A stretch of 64,000 bases of DNA. It comes from an uncultured Flavobacteriaceae bacterium. GTDB taxonomy: Bacteria > Bacteroidota > Bacteroidia > Flavobacteriales > Flavobacteriaceae. The notes below the pieces were generated by a model. The model searched no databases. It was not told the origin of the DNA and saw only the letters and a program-made list of their open reading frames with translations. Of this stretch, positions 24,042 to 55,610 are shown in pieces; the stretch's first letter is position 1, and every line of letters starts with the position of its first letter. The position numbers and the translations under genes are program-made. The stretch is from the NCBI GenBank assembly GCA_947487895.1, contig CANKYF010000014.1, positions 62,001-126,000 of the forward strand. The letters are read 5' to 3'.

Positions 24042-27000
24042 CTATTTCTTAATAACTTTAACATTCATCTCTTCAACCTTTTTATCAGATAAAGGAGATG
24101 GTGCACCAAATAGTAAGTCTTCACTAGTTCCTGTTTTTGGGAATGCCATAACTTCTCTAATAGAAGCTTTTTTCTCTAAAATCATCATTAAACGGTCTAC
24201 ACCCCATGCAATACCACCATGAGGAGGTGCTCCATAATGAAATGCTTTGTACATAGTACCAACACTCTTCATCATTTCTTCTTTGTTGTAGCCCATGTTT
24301 TTGTACGTAGCTTCTAATATTTCTGGTTTATGAGCACGAACAGAACCACCACCAATTTCATAGCCATTCAATATCAAATCGTATTGTTGCGCTATTATGG
24401 AACCTATTTCTTTTTCTTTACCATTTATATGCTTCTCAATATCGTAAGTAGCTGGCATAGAGAATGGGTTATGCGTAAAAGTCCAATTACCCTCATCTGT
24501 TTTTTCAAACATTGGGAAATCAACTACCCATGCAGGTCTTAGTTCTTTGGCATTAATTAGCCTTAGCATTTTACCCATTTCCTGTCTAACCGCATCAAGA
24601 GCTTTATTTGCAGTGGCATAATCTGCAGCAGAAAAGAATACAATATCGCCTACTTGAGCATTTGTAGCTTTTATAATATTAGCTGCAATATCTTCGCCTA
24701 AGAATTTAATAATAGGTGATTGTAAATCGTTTTCATTTACAATAATATATGCTAGCCCACCTAAACCATGATCTTGGGCAATAGTAGTTAATTTTTCTAT
24801 TTGCCCTTTAGACATACGTTTCTTACCTTGTTCTTCAGCAGATACTTTAATGCATTTTACAATACCACCTTCATCAATTGGTTTGCTAAATACTTGGAAG
24901 GTTGTATCTTTTACAATATCTGTAATGTCTTGCATTTCTAATCCAAAACGAAGATCTGGTCTGTCACAACCATACTTATCCATGGCTTCTTTATAAGTAA
25001 GCACTTCAAATGGTTTTAAAATCCATTTTTTGCCATAAATTTTCTTCACAATGTCATTGAACATATTCGTGTTCAAATCTATAATTTGTTGCATACTAGC
25101 ATAAGCCACTTCAATATCTAGTTGCGTAAATTCAGGCTGACGATCACCACGGGAATCTTCATCTCTAAAACAACGTGCTATCTGGAAGTACTTTTCATAA
25201 CCACTCACCATAAGCATTTGCTTAAACTGTTGAGGTGCTTGTGGTAAGGTGTAGAATGAGCCTGCTTCTTTACGCGTAGGTACAATAAATTCGCGTGCAC
25301 CTTCATCTGTTCCAGCACTTAAAATAGGGGTTTCTATTTCAAGGAAATCTTGTTCATCTAGAATGTCTCGCATGAGTTTAATGACTCTATGTCTGTTTCT
25401 AATAACGCGATGAACATCTTGATTTCTATGATCTAAGAATTTATATTGAAAACGTGTTGTTTCGTTTGTTTTAGTGGCTCTTTTTATTTCAAAAGGCAAT
25501 GTTTTAGAAAGATTAAGAATTTCTAATTCTGATGTTTCTAATTCGATAGTACCGCTTCTCAATCCAGGATTGAAATCATCTTCTTTACGCTTTACAATTT
25601 CACCTGTTACAGTAATAACCGATTCTGGTTTTAGTTTTACAAGATCATCTAAGTCTCCAAAAGATTCGCTACTTAAGCGTACTTGAAAAATTTCATTACT
25701 AGAATCACGTAAGTCAATGAACATTAATTCTCCATGGTCACGTACACTAGATACCCAGCCAGACAATGTTACTTTTTTAGAAATAAAGTCTTCTGATAAT
25801 TGTGAAGCAATATGTGTTCTGTATTCGTCTTTTACAACTAAAGGAATTTCAGGTAATACCTCTTCTTCTGTAGTAGTTGATTGTTGTGTACTACCAGTTT
25901 TTTGTTTATTGCTTTGATCTTCAGTCTTCGGGTTTTCATTTTTACCAGAAAGAGCTTCTAAAATACTTTCACGAATTACTTTTCCTGAAGCACCCTTACC
26001 AATTATGCCAATAACTTTACCAACTAAAATACCTGCTTTTCCTTGATTCCCTCCTTTTATATCATTTGCTACAGCTTCGTTTTCAGAAATAACCTTTGCA
26101 ATAGCATCATTTATAGAATCTTCTGAAATGGTGTTTTCTTTGAAATAAGTAATATAATCAAAAGAAGTCTCTCCTAGTAGATTTTTAATAGCATTTTGGG
26201 CTAAAACAGGAGTGACTTTATCGTCTTTAAATAAGTTGAAAATTTCAATAAAGTTGTCAATATTATCAATTTTATTATAATCTTCAGGTTTTAAGTTGTT
26301 AGATAACGTTTTTGCAACAAATGAAGGTTCATTTATAACATTGTTAATAGTTATAAAAGTTTCAGAACGTAAAGAATCACCAGTAAAAAATTTAGCATCT
26401 TGAGGTAATACGCCTCCTTTTATTAAAATACGTTCTACAGCATAAGGTAATGCACTTGTATCTACATCAATAGATTCAACAACCTCTTTTATATTTACAA
26501 ACGGTAAATCTGGTTCAGAGATGAAACGATAATCTGCTTCAAACTCTTTTTTACGCATGGTTTTAGTCTGCTTTAAATCTGCATCAAATAAAACCGTGGT
26601 TTGATCTGGTCTAAACCCTTTGTATTCTATATAATAGTTAAGTTGTTTTTCAATTTCTTCTTTTAAAGCCTCTATCATAAACTTAAACGAGTTTAAGTTT
26701 TTTATTTCGGTACGAGGATTTAGTTGGCTGCTTCCTTTTTTTCTAAGCGATACAGAAACATCAGATTTAAACTCACCTTTTTCAAGATTTGCTTCAGATA
26801 TTTTTAAATTTTGTACAATACGTTGCAAGTATTGCGCATATGTTGATGCGTCTTCAATATAACGAATGCAAGGTTCTGTTACAATTTCAATTAATGGTAC
26901 ACCAGCTTTGTTAAAATCAACTAAGGATACTGTTTTTTCATGCATTAATTTTGCAGCATCTTCTTCAATATGAACTTGGGTAAGCTCAACAGTAAATTCA

Positions 27001-27377
27001 GAACCATCATTTCTAAAACAAGATACTTGTCCATCAGGAATTACAGGATTATGAAACTGTGTAATCTGTATATTCTTTGGATTGTCAGGGTACTCGTAAT
27101 GCTTTCTATCCCAGGAAATAACTTCGTTTTTAAAAGATGATTCCACCGCTTTTCCAAAGTAAATAGCTTTTACAATAGCTTCTTTATTTACGGCTGGTAA
27201 TACACCCATTTGTCCAGTACAAACCGAACAGATATTCTCATTAGGTATATCAATCTCTTGATTAGGACAAGAACAAAATAGTTTGGTTTTTGTATTTAAT
27301 CGGATATGAGTTTCCAGTCCGATAACCAATTCTAAATCGTGGGCTTCAAGCGCCTTATTTAATTGCTCTAAATCCAT
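24042..27377 (-). CDS. gatB/aspS: fusion of Asp-tRNA(Asn)/Glu-tRNA(Gln) amidotransferase subunit B and aspartyl-tRNA synthetase
   Basis: 1111 residues in one uninterrupted frame. Residues 15-475 are GatB: GLETHIRLNTKTKLFC, zinc ligands Cys35, Cys37, Cys50 and Cys53, kinase-like core, helical domain, and the YqeY-like tail (about 420-475) that grips tRNA. A Ser/Thr/Gln-rich linker (478-515) follows. Residues 520-1111 are a bacterial-type AspRS: OB-fold anticodon domain (535-625), class II motif 1 near 645-690, motif 2 (CFRDED, 736-741), GAD insertion (about 810-925) and motif 3 (GVDRLMMIL). His548 in RDHG sits where E. coli has Leu and Pseudomonas His, a mark of non-discriminating AspRS as I recall. 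Inferred role: charge tRNA(Asn) with Asp, then amidate it. Its start overlaps the gatA stop by one base. Confidence 0.95.
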   Translation of the reverse strand: MDLEQLNKALEAHDLELVIGLETHIRLNTKTKLFCSCPNQEIDIPNENICSVCTGQMGVLPAVNKEAIVKAIYFGKAVESSFKNEVISWDRKHYEYPDNPKNIQITQFHNPVIPDGQVSCFRNDGSEFTVELTQVHIEEDAAKLMHEKTVSLVDFNKAGVPLIEIVTEPCIRYIEDASTYAQYLQRIVQNLKISEANLEKGEFKSDVSVSLRKKGSSQLNPRTEIKNLNSFKFMIEALKEEIEKQLNYYIEYKGFRPDQTTVLFDADLKQTKTMRKKEFEADYRFISEPDLPFVNIKEVVESIDVDTSALPYAVERILIKGGVLPQDAKFFTGDSLRSETFITINNVINEPSFVAKTLSNNLKPEDYNKIDNIDNFIEIFNLFKDDKVTPVLAQNAIKNLLGETSFDYITYFKENTISEDSINDAIAKVISENEAVANDIKGGNQGKAGILVGKVIGIIGKGASGKVIRESILEALSGKNENPKTEDQSNKQKTGSTQQSTTTEEEVLPEIPLVVKDEYRTHIASQLSEDFISKKVTLSGWVSSVRDHGELMFIDLRDSSNEIFQVRLSSESFGDLDDLVKLKPESVITVTGEIVKRKEDDFNPGLRSGTIELETSELEILNLSKTLPFEIKRATKTNETTRFQYKFLDHRNQDVHRVIRNRHRVIKLMRDILDEQDFLEIETPILSAGTDEGAREFIVPTRKEAGSFYTLPQAPQQFKQMLMVSGYEKYFQIARCFRDEDSRGDRQPEFTQLDIEVAYASMQQIIDLNTNMFNDIVKKIYGKKWILKPFEVLTYKEAMDKYGCDRPDLRFGLEMQDITDIVKDTTFQVFSKPIDEGGIVKCIKVSAEEQGKKRMSKGQIEKLTTIAQDHGLGGLAYIIVNENDLQSPIIKFLGEDIAANIIKATNAQVGDIVFFSAADYATANKALDAVRQEMGKMLRLINAKELRPAWVVDFPMFEKTDEGNWTFTHNPFSMPATYDIEKHINGKEKEIGSIIAQQYDLILNGYEIGGGSVRAHKPEILEATYKNMGYNKEEMMKSVGTMYKAFHYGAPPHGGIAWGVDRLMMILEKKASIREVMAFPKTGTSEDLLFGAPSPLSDKKVEEMNVKVIKK

Positions 27378-28777
27378 TATATCGTATCTTTTAAGAAGTT
27401 AGCAAACTTCAAAACAAGTTCGTCGTTGTCTTTTGCGGCTGTAATTTGTAAGCCTGTCTCTGTGCCTTGAGGCACTGTTAAAGTTGGTAATTGTCCTAAA
27501 CTAAATCCTACCGTATAAGCATCTGATAAATACATAGCCAGCGGATCTTTTAAGCTATCTCCAATTTTTGGAGGAACACTAGGAGTTACAGGGGAAATAA
27601 TGATATCAACTTCGTTAAAATCGTTTTCAAAATTCTGAGAAATTTGATCTCTTAGTGCTAAGCCTTTTAAATAAATAGCGTCACTAAACCCTTGAGATAA
27701 TACTTGGTTACCACCAACAATTCTACGTTTGGTTTCTTCTGAAAATTTTTCAGAACGTGTTACAGAATAACTTTCTTTTAAGTTATCTGCTTCAATTCTA
27801 TCTCCATAATTTGTACCATCTAAACGTGATAGATTAGAAGCAGTTTCGGCCATTGCCAAGGTATAATATGTAGAAACCAAAGTATCAGATTTAAAGAAAT
27901 CTAGTGCTTTTACTTTAATACCTTTGGCTTTTATTTTTTCAATTGTTGATAAGAAATCATTTTTTATAGTCTCATCTATAGCTTCACTTTCAATAAAGTT
28001 TTTGAAGTATCCAATGGTTTTAATGTTGTCTGCGTTTAAAATTGAAGGAGCTTCTATTTCCGCGGAAGCGTAACTGGTTTGATCTTTTACATCTTTACCG
28101 CTCATAGTGTTTAATACAATACGAATATCCTCAATAGATTTAGCAATAGGTCCTACACAATCTGTAGATGATGCATAAGCCATTAATCCATATCTAGAAA
28201 TGCGGCCGTAAGTTGGCTTTAAACCATATATGGCATTGTATCCTGCTGGTTGACGTACAGAACCACCTGTATCGCCTCCAATAGAAAATATAGTAAAATC
28301 TTTAGCAACATTTACAGCTGAACCGCCACTAGAACCACCACCAACTAACTCAGGGTTATGAGCATTTTTAACAGCTCCGAAAATAGTATTCTCACTAGAT
28401 GACCCATGACCAAAACTATCGCAGTTTTCTTTAACTAATGGAATAGCACCGGCATCCAATAATTTTTGAATGGCTGTAGCAGTGTAAGCAGATTTATAGT
28501 TTTTTAATAAATCTGAACTTGCTGTTGTATAGGTGCCTTCAACCATATAGACATCTTTAATGCCAAACGGAATCCCTTCCAGTAATCCAATAGTTTCACC
28601 AGAGGCTATTTTTTTGTCAACTTTGGTAGCTAATTCTAAAGCAGTATTTTCAAGAAGACTATTTACCGTATTGTGAGTGTTAGATTTTAATAAAGCTAAC
28701 TTCCCTTTTACTAGATCAACACAAGAAATCTCTTTTTTGACCAATTGTTGGTGTAATGAGTGTATTTGAGATTCCAT
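27377..28777 (-). CDS. gatA: Asp-tRNA(Asn)/Glu-tRNA(Gln) amidotransferase subunit A
   Basis: 466 residues, an amidase-signature enzyme. The Ser-cisSer-Lys triad is visible: Lys in FGIKDVY, the glycine-serine stretch GGGSSGGSAV, and GGDTGGSVRQPA. GatA hydrolyses glutamine and passes ammonia through a channel to GatB, which amidates activated Asp-tRNA or Glu-tRNA. It lies between gatC (2-base gap) and the gatB::aspS fusion (1-base overlap), so the three polypeptides of GatCAB are made from one mRNA with tight coupling. Confidence 0.96.
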   Translation of the reverse strand: MESQIHSLHQQLVKKEISCVDLVKGKLALLKSNTHNTVNSLLENTALELATKVDKKIASGETIGLLEGIPFGIKDVYMVEGTYTTASSDLLKNYKSAYTATAIQKLLDAGAIPLVKENCDSFGHGSSSENTIFGAVKNAHNPELVGGGSSGGSAVNVAKDFTIFSIGGDTGGSVRQPAGYNAIYGLKPTYGRISRYGLMAYASSTDCVGPIAKSIEDIRIVLNTMSGKDVKDQTSYASAEIEAPSILNADNIKTIGYFKNFIESEAIDETIKNDFLSTIEKIKAKGIKVKALDFFKSDTLVSTYYTLAMAETASNLSRLDGTNYGDRIEADNLKESYSVTRSEKFSEETKRRIVGGNQVLSQGFSDAIYLKGLALRDQISQNFENDFNEVDIIISPVTPSVPPKIGDSLKDPLAMYLSDAYTVGFSLGQLPTLTVPQGTETGLQITAAKDNDELVLKFANFLKDTI

Positions 28778-28779
28778 AT

Positions 28780-29049
28780 CTATTCTTCTATAACTTTAGA
28801 AACTACTAAATACCCTTTCTTTTCTCTAGGGAAGTTTTCTTTTATGATTGCTTTTTCAGTTGTAGAACTTTCAATTACAATATCGTCTCTTAAATTATTC
28901 ACAGAAACAGCATTAATGCTACTTGTATTAAAAGTGTTGTCATTTGAAGTGTGCGCATTTTTAATTACATCAAATAATTGGCTCACTGCTTCAGAGGGTT
29001 CAGCGCCTTTAATACTCGACAGAATGTCGACTGTCATAATTTTACTCAT
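28780..29049 (-). CDS. gatC: Asp-tRNA(Asn)/Glu-tRNA(Gln) amidotransferase subunit C
   Basis: 89 residues. Only the C-terminal REKKGYLVVSKVIEE strongly resembles GatC (family pattern RED/GYFxVPKVIEE); the N-terminal helical part is divergent, lacking the usual LSPEE-like beginning. GatC is a belt that wraps around GatA-GatB and stabilises them. Position (first of three) and length agree with the assignment. A 114-base leader remnant separates its ATG from the attenuator stem upstream. Confidence 0.85.
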   Translation of the reverse strand: MSKIMTVDILSSIKGAEPSEAVSQLFDVIKNAHTSNDNTFNTSSINAVSVNNLRDDIVIESSTTEKAIIKENFPREKKGYLVVSKVIEE

Positions 29050-29065: not shown

Positions 29066-29109
29066 ATTCCCGTTTTCACTTCGACTAGCTCAGCGTAACA
29101 CACGGGAAT
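29066..29109. repeat. dispersed intergenic palindromic repeat, copy 1
   Basis: Eight-base inverted ends ATTCCCGT / ACGGGAAT enclose a core CTTCGACTAGCTCAG. A related core occurs near 40987 and 55545, always between genes. Similar 'CTTCGACnnGCTCAG' fragments are common in flavobacterial genomes as I recall. This copy lies in the transcribed leader between the attenuator and gatC. Confidence 0.6.
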
Positions 29110-29162: not shown

Positions 29163-29194
29163 AAAAAAAGCCTTCCGTGATTTGGAAGGCTTTT
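29163..29194 (-). terminator. attenuator terminator of the gatCAB-aspS leader
   Basis: Read on the minus strand: an 11-base perfect stem AAAAGCCTTCC (29194-29184) / GGAAGGCTTTT (29176-29166), 7-base loop, and a run of seven T (29169-29163). It lies between the Asn-rich leader ORF and gatC. The same GGAAGG recurs at 29220-29215, just past the leader stop codon, and can pair with the 5' CCTTCC arm to prevent this hairpin. Confidence 0.85.
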
Positions 29195-29214
29195 CAATAT
29201 TTTTAAACAATAAA

Positions 29215-29239
29215 CCTTCCTGATCCTACATGTTAGGAT
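29215..29239 (-). promoter_or_regulatory. anti-antiterminator hairpin and antiterminator arm of the Asn attenuator
   Basis: Minus strand: ATCCTA / TAGGAT (29239-29234 with 29228-29223) can form a 6-base hairpin that spans the end of the leader ORF. Directly after it comes GGAAGG (29220-29215), complementary to the CCTTCC arm of the downstream terminator. Pairing GGAAGG with CCTTCC would be the antiterminator (2:3), and the ATCCTA hairpin the 1:2 structure of a classical attenuator. Pairings are by eye; no folding was computed. Confidence 0.7.
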
Positions 29240-29273
29240 TATTGAAATTATTATTGTTAGTATTATTTCTCAT
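29226..29273 (-). CDS. asparagine-rich leader peptide of the gatCAB-aspS operon
   Basis: A 15-codon ORF, ATG to TAG, encoding MRNNTNNNNFNNPNM: nine of fifteen residues are Asn (seven AAT, two AAC). An in-frame TAA two codons before the ATG limits the start. It is followed by overlapping hairpins and an intrinsic terminator in front of genes that make Asn-tRNA(Asn). The expected job is regulatory: when charged tRNA(Asn) is scarce the ribosome stalls in the Asn run and lets the antiterminator form. No function of the peptide itself is expected. Confidence 0.82.
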   Translation of the reverse strand: MRNNTNNNNFNNPNM

Positions 29274-29287
29274 GGTTTAAAGCGCCT

Positions 29288-29295
29288 CAAAGATA
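29288..29295 (-). promoter_or_regulatory. candidate promoter -7 element for gatCAB-aspS leader
   Basis: TATCTTTG on the minus strand fits the Bacteroidota consensus TAnnTTTG. It ends 14 bases before the leader ATG, so the leader mRNA would have a very short 5' UTR. No clear TTG is seen at the -33 distance. Confidence 0.55.
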
Positions 29296-29672
29296 TACAG
29301 AATATACATAGTACACCTATTTTTTTTTATGTGTGGTTTCATTATTGCTAATTTGATAAAAAAAATGATTTTAAATTATAAGGTTTTTAATTAAAATGTG
29401 TAATTCTTTGTTTTATTATGTTATTTAAGGCTAACAGATTATTATTAAGTAGAAGTTAGAAGAAGCTTCTAATCTTAAAATTTTTATTTGAATGCATATA
29501 AGGCGATATAAGCGGCTCTCTAATATTTTTTAATTTCAAAACAGGAATTTAATGTTTTAAATCTATTTTAAAGTGTTTTTAAAGCAATTTAAGCAGTTTT
29601 TATGTAATTAACAATTGTTGATAATTTTTAAACAAACTCTTTTAAAAGCTTTAAAAAGGCGTCTTTATTTCG
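29296..29672. other. AT-rich intergenic region between divergent gatC leader and gyrB
   Basis: I find no coding frame, RNA gene or strong repeat in this AT-rich stretch. It presumably holds upstream promoter sequence for both directions. Confidence 0.5.
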
Positions 29673-55448: not shown

Positions 55449-55541
55449 TCTGTAACGTCACTGCGAGTATTACTTTTTTGTAAAACGTGGCAGTCTGTTT
55501 TATTATAAAAGATTACCACAGTCGTTCCTCATTTCGACAAT

Positions 55542-55610
55542 ACTTCGACAAGCTCAGAATGACAGCTCAATATAACACCTTCACAATGACAAATTACTTT
55601 CTGTCATTGT
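55542..55610. repeat. dispersed intergenic repeat, copy 3, with adjacent hairpin
   Basis: Core TACTTCGACAAGCTCAGAATGACA (given in part) near 55542, followed by a 9-base perfect inverted repeat ACAATGACA / TGTCATTGT (55583-55591 and 55602-55610). The core is related to copies 1 and 2. Confidence 0.6.

Follow-up and report, generated by a model that had tools for sequence, protein, structure and literature searches.

Why would an operon predicted to make a charged tRNA begin with a minute reading frame of asparagine codons followed by a transcription terminator? The question is raised by the window, a 64,000-nucleotide stretch of a contig from an uncultured Flavobacteriaceae bacterium, in which a first-pass annotation had proposed that a gatC-gatA-gatB::aspS operon is governed by a leader peptide and induced when Asn-tRNA(Asn) is scarce. 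Our analysis, which rests on comparative support and includes neither experiment nor expression data, indicates that an Asn-specific, ribosome-mediated attenuator likely controls an operon predicted to make Asn on tRNA(Asn).

Anatomy of the leader region

The whole leader region is housed on the minus strand, in the intergenic span between gatC (from 29049) and the divergent gyrB (plus strand, from 29832).

29288-29297, minus strand: promoter -7 box TATATCTTTG of the TAnnTTTG type (TATCTTTG at 29295-29288), from the sequence
29226-29273, minus strand: leader ORF MRNNTNNNNFNNPNM, nine Asn among 15 codons, stop TAG (sequence, conservation, frame bias)
29251-29258, minus strand: segment 1, AACAATAA inside the Asn codons (fold, consensus helix 1)
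29223-29239, minus strand: inner 1:2 hairpin, ATCCTA (29239-29234) with TAGGAT (29228-29223), across the stop codon (fold)
29215-29220, minus strand: segment 2, GGAAGG, the antiterminator arm (sequence, stall modelling, 2:3 pair check)
29206-29213, minus strand: TTATTGTT, complement of the Asn codons AACAATAA, giving the outer 1:2 stem (fold, alignment)
29184-29194, minus strand: segment 3, terminator 5' arm AAAAGCCTTCC (terminator stem analysis)
29163-29176, minus strand: segment 4, terminator 3' arm and T run (terminator stem analysis; a 12-pair stem in another analysis)

The anatomy that had been claimed, namely a promoter, a 15-codon ORF with nine Asn codons, the ATCCTA/TAGGAT hairpin, GGAAGG, an 11-base terminator with seven T and then gatC, held in every part. 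The terminator stem is a perfect 11-bp helix (29194-29184 with 29176-29166) followed by seven T, the last at 29163. The first-pass annotation had missed the outer AACAATAA/TTATTGTT stem and the distance to gatC: the T run begins 120 nt ahead of the gene in the window, leaving a gap of 113 nt, versus 21-29 nt in most relatives. This anatomy exceeds chance, as judged from the fold z-score of the leader RNA (-3.41, with equal stability in 0/200 shuffles), from its recurrence in 49/79 loci and from the separation obtained with the leader model R1 (see below). The promoter box matches a published TAnnTTTG consensus (PMC7366714), and a scan for sigma-70 promoters was uninformative (9 sites found vs 6.8 expected). 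The long terminator-gatC stretch of the window also contains a dispersed-repeat-like sequence, CGCTGAGCTAGTCGAAGTG (29077-29095), a second copy of which lies at 55541-55559 with 3 mismatches; such dispersed repeats are common in Bacteroidota.

Conservation of the leader

A contig scan with the fusion protein, of which the best 80 loci were kept (gatC being present in 79), showed that the leader ORF recurs in related genomes: an Asn-rich mini-ORF lies upstream of gatC in 49/79 loci and is missing from 30/79, and all six same-genus genomes have it (6/6). Scanning all loci collected to that point for mini-ORFs yielded just two further ORFs, different in kind. Alignment A1 comprises 49 leaders; L081, L088, L089, L102, L112 and L115 were left out despite having leaders (the row-selection expression did not match them), and L090 (without gatC), L114 and L120 (contigs identical to L031 and L064) were dropped. 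In L112 and L115, from two genomes of the window's genus (G003 and G001), a Ser replaces the otherwise constant Phe of the leader. L103, a record titled as a Lentimicrobium MAG, carries a fusion that groups inside Flavobacterium and is probably a misbinned contig.

Within the 49 leaders, Asn codons occupy 401 of 588 positions in the leader frame, versus 6/588 and 0/588 in the other two frames, and Lys codons occupy 10/588. The Asn positions are conserved despite alternation between the two codons, with AAT/AAC counts of 14/7, 34/9, 24/19 and 6/43 at codons -7 to -4, so that the conservation check proposed for these codons was passed. This frame bias is shown; that selection acts on asparagine itself, beyond the RNA sequence alone, is our inference from it. 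Outside the ORF, GGAAGG and the TTATTGTT-like segment are near-invariant in A1.

Searched against 349 family-level genomes, R1 gave one match in each of 34 genomes, at 102.9-130.5 bits, and everything else scored at most 47.9 bits. The fusion was found in 55 of the same 349 genomes (full length in 54) and in 33 of the 34 leader genomes, the exception being G153, where the leader lies close to the end of an 8-kb contig and no fusion was found. The leader-fusion association is strong (Fisher p 2e-30), with the caveat that Fisher values throughout disregard relatedness. The leader state of G169 could not be determined, its contig stopping 38 nt upstream. The weak R1 matches (≤47.9 bits) were considered as further gat leaders and rejected, since none of the eight examined has an Asn-run leader; another weak match, in G269, is an asnA leader. 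Among 246 genomes drawn from the order, the window's genome (G000) was the sole R1 match at E ≤ 1e-6, so that this sample gave no leader in other families. In a set of 59 relatives, the fusion was present in 11.

Leader and leaderless operons differ in their promoters. A TAnnTTTG box lies 10-23 nt upstream of the leader start in 50/50 leader loci, consistent with a transcript that includes the leader; the start itself remains unmapped and is inferred. In leaderless regions, a plain promoter motif is found 29-55 nt upstream of gatC in 50/51, without any Asn leader near it, and this motif is present in 0/50 leader loci. The 51 regions are not 51 species, because some G loci duplicate L loci. A quick tree built from 80 fusion proteins requires 8 changes of leader state, versus a shuffled mean of 24.3, and has leaders in both large clades, a pattern compatible with repeated leader loss, the direction being unproven.

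Predicted pairings and the proposed switch

The pairing of GGAAGG with CCTTCC as an antiterminator, claimed at the outset, is supported by modelling. On the assumption that the ribosome covers 12 nt beyond the A site, GGAAGG is free with the ribosome stalled on any Asn codon in 49/49 modelled leaders, and in that state, with segment 4 not yet made, the 2:3 pairing has a mean probability of 0.67-1.0. With the ribosome at the leader stop, 4-6 of the 6 GGAAGG bases are masked, and the terminator is then predicted at 0.86-1.0; in RNA without a ribosome, the predictions are 0.86-1.0 for the terminator and 0.62-0.88 for the 1:2 stem. The pairings 1:2, 2:3 and 3:4 are thus predicted to be mutually exclusive, and stall and stop to differ in outcome. 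In 11/49 leaders, including that of the window, only 4 of the 6 segment 2 bases are covered at the stop. The remaining two keep a high predicted probability of pairing with segment 3 (0.96-0.99), which makes the outcome in these leaders dependent on the true footprint. Folding in both states gave a geometry that fits trp-type attenuation; in the full-length RNA at equilibrium the terminator prevails, and the switch must therefore operate during transcription, as in trp. The geometry and the predicted pairings are shown, and the kinetic switch is inferred.

The alignment agrees with these helices without proving them. Standard pairs fill 98.7% of cells in 1:2 and 3:4 and 98.6% in 2:3, in line with the retention of the GGAAGG/CCTTCC/GGAAGG triple; the inner hairpin (consensus helix 3) is paired in 99.6% of cells and terminator pairs are kept in 97.4%. 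Changes on both sides affect 2/23 pairs, none of them in 2:3. Covariation, which the first-pass annotation had recommended looking for, is accordingly weak, and we gave it up as the chief proof because the sequence variation is too small for it to prove helices.

Our working model is as follows. The AspRS fused to GatB would charge tRNA(Asn) with Asp, which GatCAB would then amidate. With ample Asn-tRNA(Asn), the ribosome would pass the Asn codons, halt at the leader stop and cover most of GGAAGG, leaving CCTTCC to build the terminator and turning the operon off. Under a shortage of Asn-tRNA(Asn), it would instead stall in the Asn run and disrupt the AACAATAA/TTATTGTT stem, GGAAGG and CCTTCC would pair ahead of the synthesis of segment 4, and RNA polymerase would continue into gatC. 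An untranslated leader would form the 1:2 stem and the terminator. The induction under scarcity that had been claimed is supported by comparison only, and the response to asparagine is inferred, not shown.

The operon and asparagine supply

The genes downstream of the leader are as follows.

28780-29049, minus strand: gatC, divergent from gyrB (TIGR00135, E 1.2e-4, 22 of 47 bits, below cut-off)
27377-28777, minus strand: gatA (TIGR00132, 433 bits, below the cut-off of 481; Pfam Amidase)
24042-27377, minus strand: gatB::aspS fusion, 1111 aa (TIGR00133 and TIGR00459, above NCBIfam cut-offs)

The fused AspRS has His at the RDxG site in 80/80 proteins, as does a solved Asp/Asn enzyme (4wj3), while one solved Asp enzyme has Leu. 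Seven stand-alone AspRS have five Leu, one Phe and one Lys at this site, whose residue we take to bear on whether an AspRS is non-discriminating; the window genome's own stand-alone AspRS was unresolved. The tRNA-Asn of the same genome (in L191) has U1-A72, as read by eye, a pair stated to be required in tRNA(Asn) for tRNA-dependent Asn biosynthesis (PMC4206432).

What the operon is for was addressed in a set of 80 genomes of our choosing (34 with leader, 22 with the fusion and no leader, 24 without the fusion). GlnRS is present in 78/80 and AsnRS in 76/80, and GatCAB is therefore unneeded for Gln and mostly unneeded for charging. Usual-type AsnB, defined post hoc from the hits as a first match covering profile positions 1 to 384-389, occurs in 22/24 genomes without the fusion and in 0/56 with the fusion or leader, and AsnA occurs in exactly the two fusion-less genomes that have no usual-type AsnB. 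Taken together, usual-type AsnB or AsnA is present in 24/24 genomes without the fusion versus 0/56 with the fusion or leader, a link that the first-pass annotation had not foreseen: the operon tracks the loss of usual-type asparagine synthetases. By our count, 58 of a further 60 fusion-less genomes have usual-type AsnB or AsnA (two of the matches begin at profile positions 14 and 16), and G127 and G203, also fusion-less, have AsnB-family matches of other types only. From this distribution, the gat operon seems to serve Asn biosynthesis in place of asparagine synthetase. The link is shown; the role and the enzyme activities are inferred from sequence alone.

No AsnB or AsnA family match was obtained, at the thresholds used, in 33/56 fusion or leader genomes. 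The other 23/56 retain other AsnB-family paralogues, possibly Asn-making, and the window's genome has two, so that its sole dependence on the gat route is unproven. Three complete fusion genomes (listed 99%) have no AsnRS above cut-off (G209, G256 and G265, corresponding to L159, L161 and L162), and all three are leaderless, which is what a need for constant expression of the route would predict. A tie between leader loss and AsnRS loss was nevertheless not retained (Fisher p 0.062, uncorrected for relatedness).

Asn leaders before asnB and asnA

A further finding that goes beyond the first-pass annotation is that leaders of this type also stand upstream of asnB and asnA. We scanned 93 regions upstream of these genes, nearly all from fusion-less genomes, for at least 5 Asn in the last 18 leader codons and a terminator 40-130 nt further. 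Asn leaders with terminators were found in 23/93 regions, that is, 18/87 for asnB and 5/6 for asnA, and the same scan with K, I, L, F, T, S, Y, E, D or Q gave 0/93; on the reverse strand it gave none for Asn and one for Leu. These fractions are not prevalences, because seven genomes (G381, G315, G383, G302, G307, G287 and G269) were picked on purpose as congeners of ones in which a leader had been seen. The asnB leader match in G043 is doubtful, and the asnB regions of G203 and G127 lay outside the scan. Asn-rich leaders with strong terminators were observed before asnB in L176, L192, L193, L194, L204, L210, L222, L223, L225, L229, L230, L233, L237, L243, L250, L252 and L270. The asnA loci L213, L214, L218 and L220 seem, by eye, to carry a tandem pair of leader-terminator units (4/5), and a profile of gat leaders detects these loci. 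Upstream of asnS, no Asn leader was found in four regions (0/4).

A segment containing CTTG, in most cases as AACTTG, lies 5-9 nt past the first base of the stop codon in 17/18 asnB leaders and pairs with the terminator arm in an antiterminator-like manner. Singly these matches are weak, with 1-105 of 200 shuffles equally good (151 in G043). For asnA, the corresponding counts are 1 (G287), 3 (G062), 19 (G082) and 25 (G013) of 200, and no match was found in G269.

When a gat-leader profile was searched against 97 upstream regions, the nine best matches were all asnA (E 5e-9, 8e-7, 1.6e-5, then 4e-4 to 0.015), versus 0.03 for the best reversed-sequence control and 0.28 for the best asnB leader, and asnA leaders took the top five places of R1 across 48 of the regions. 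Since both searches favour asnA, the gat and asnA leaders are perhaps of common descent, a possibility that low complexity or like function could mimic. An in-place swap of asnA or asnB for gat was considered and rejected: window proteins of at least 100 aa from 12-50 kb, compared with seven 20-kb neighbourhoods, gave no matches at E 1e-15, and no gene neighbourhood common to gat and asnA/asnB loci was found.

Alternative explanations

One could argue that the terminator belongs to an independent short transcription unit, encoding a small RNA or a micropeptide, and that gatC has its own promoter downstream. The strong terminator ahead of gatC, the 113 nt to spare in the window and the leaderless relatives, which show that a close promoter motif is possible for gatC, speak for this reading. 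It is nonetheless very unlikely, given that the plain motif of the leaderless regions is absent from leader loci and that, with T runs beginning 21-29 nt before gatC, most of these loci have no room for a promoter. It could also be that the attenuator is genuine and its enzymes chiefly serve Gln-tRNA or fidelity instead of Asn supply, since GatCAB enzymes are able to serve both tRNAs and AsnB-family paralogues persist in part of the genomes. Against this stand the near-universal GlnRS, the identity of the GatB partner in the fusion, which is AspRS, and the complementary occurrence of the gat operon with AsnB and AsnA, and we consider this reading scarcely probable.

A portion of the Asn run pairs within the 1:2 stem, so the run might be a mere by-product of RNA constraint in an A/T-rich hairpin, without any asparagine sensing. 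This we can all but exclude: an RNA constraint does not account for the bias towards one frame (401, 6 and 0 of 588) nor for the scarcity of Lys, AAT and AAC are mixed at four codon columns, and asnB leaders of unlike sequence use Asn too, with ten other amino acids at 0/93. An attenuator that reads asparagine codons and serves asparagine supply thus remains our preferred reading.

Relation to known systems

The mechanism is of a known kind. Like trp-, his- and phe-type attenuators, the gat leader combines a short ORF enriched in end-product codons with alternative 1:2, 2:3 and 3:4 pairings and a terminator upstream of the operon; it differs from these and from the Bacteroid-trp leader (RF01692) in its Asn codons and in the tRNA-dependent pathway. 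RF01692, an instance of leader-peptide attenuation already known in Bacteroidota, was also matched in a Polaribacter locus (L073, 9912-10028), downstream of its gat operon. No Rfam family reached its gathering score in the window, the best sub-threshold matches being Phe_leader (35.6 of 55 bits) and Thr_leader (26.1 of 55), and no T-box was among Rfam matches up to E 1. In Clostridium acetobutylicum, tRNA-dependent amidation is under riboswitch (T-box) control (Saad et al. 2012, 2013); the target is reportedly gatCAB, with tRNA(Asn) as one ligand. That element likewise governs an amidotransferase route to Asn-tRNA(Asn), but it binds tRNA directly, whereas the window has a translated leader.

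In Bdellovibrio, Deinococcus and Thermus, AsnRS and GlnRS are present, Asn synthetase is missing, and AspRS with GatCAB makes Asn on tRNA; the same survey already includes Bacteroidetes in its list of genera that show the pattern (PMC4206432). In comparison, the AspRS of the window is an additional one and fused to GatB, and the parts of that paper bearing on the pathway give no leader-peptide control. Hints of leader-peptide attenuation before amino-acid biosynthesis operons exist for Flavobacterium psychrophilum, of the same family (PMC9723704), the relevant section naming neither Asn nor asnA, asnB or gat. The first-pass annotation knew of no Asn leader over a tRNA amidotransferase. In the open-access literature searched (titles and abstract starts), we found no description of an Asn leader peptide for gat, asnA or asnB; subscription papers were mostly uncovered and absence from print is unproven. 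Within these limits such leaders appear to be undescribed, and to our knowledge no leader-peptide attenuator sensing Asn as end product has been reported.

A bolder joint reading has four parts: Asn attenuators would be a Flavobacteriaceae module placed before AsnA, AsnB and GatCAB-AspRS, which are non-homologous routes to Asn; the gat and asnA leaders would stem from one ancestor, the switch having been kept as the enzyme was exchanged; the gat leader would have been shortened by a new stop codon; and leaders would have been lost repeatedly. We see about as much reason to doubt this combination as to accept it. In the gat operon, the leader would control a pathway that yields a charged tRNA, making the molecule sensed and the molecule made identical. 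This provides a rule, open to testing, for when Asn is made on tRNA across a large marine group. The presence of one kind of switch before three unrelated enzymes may also allow one to ask how regulation outlives the replacement of the enzyme it controls.
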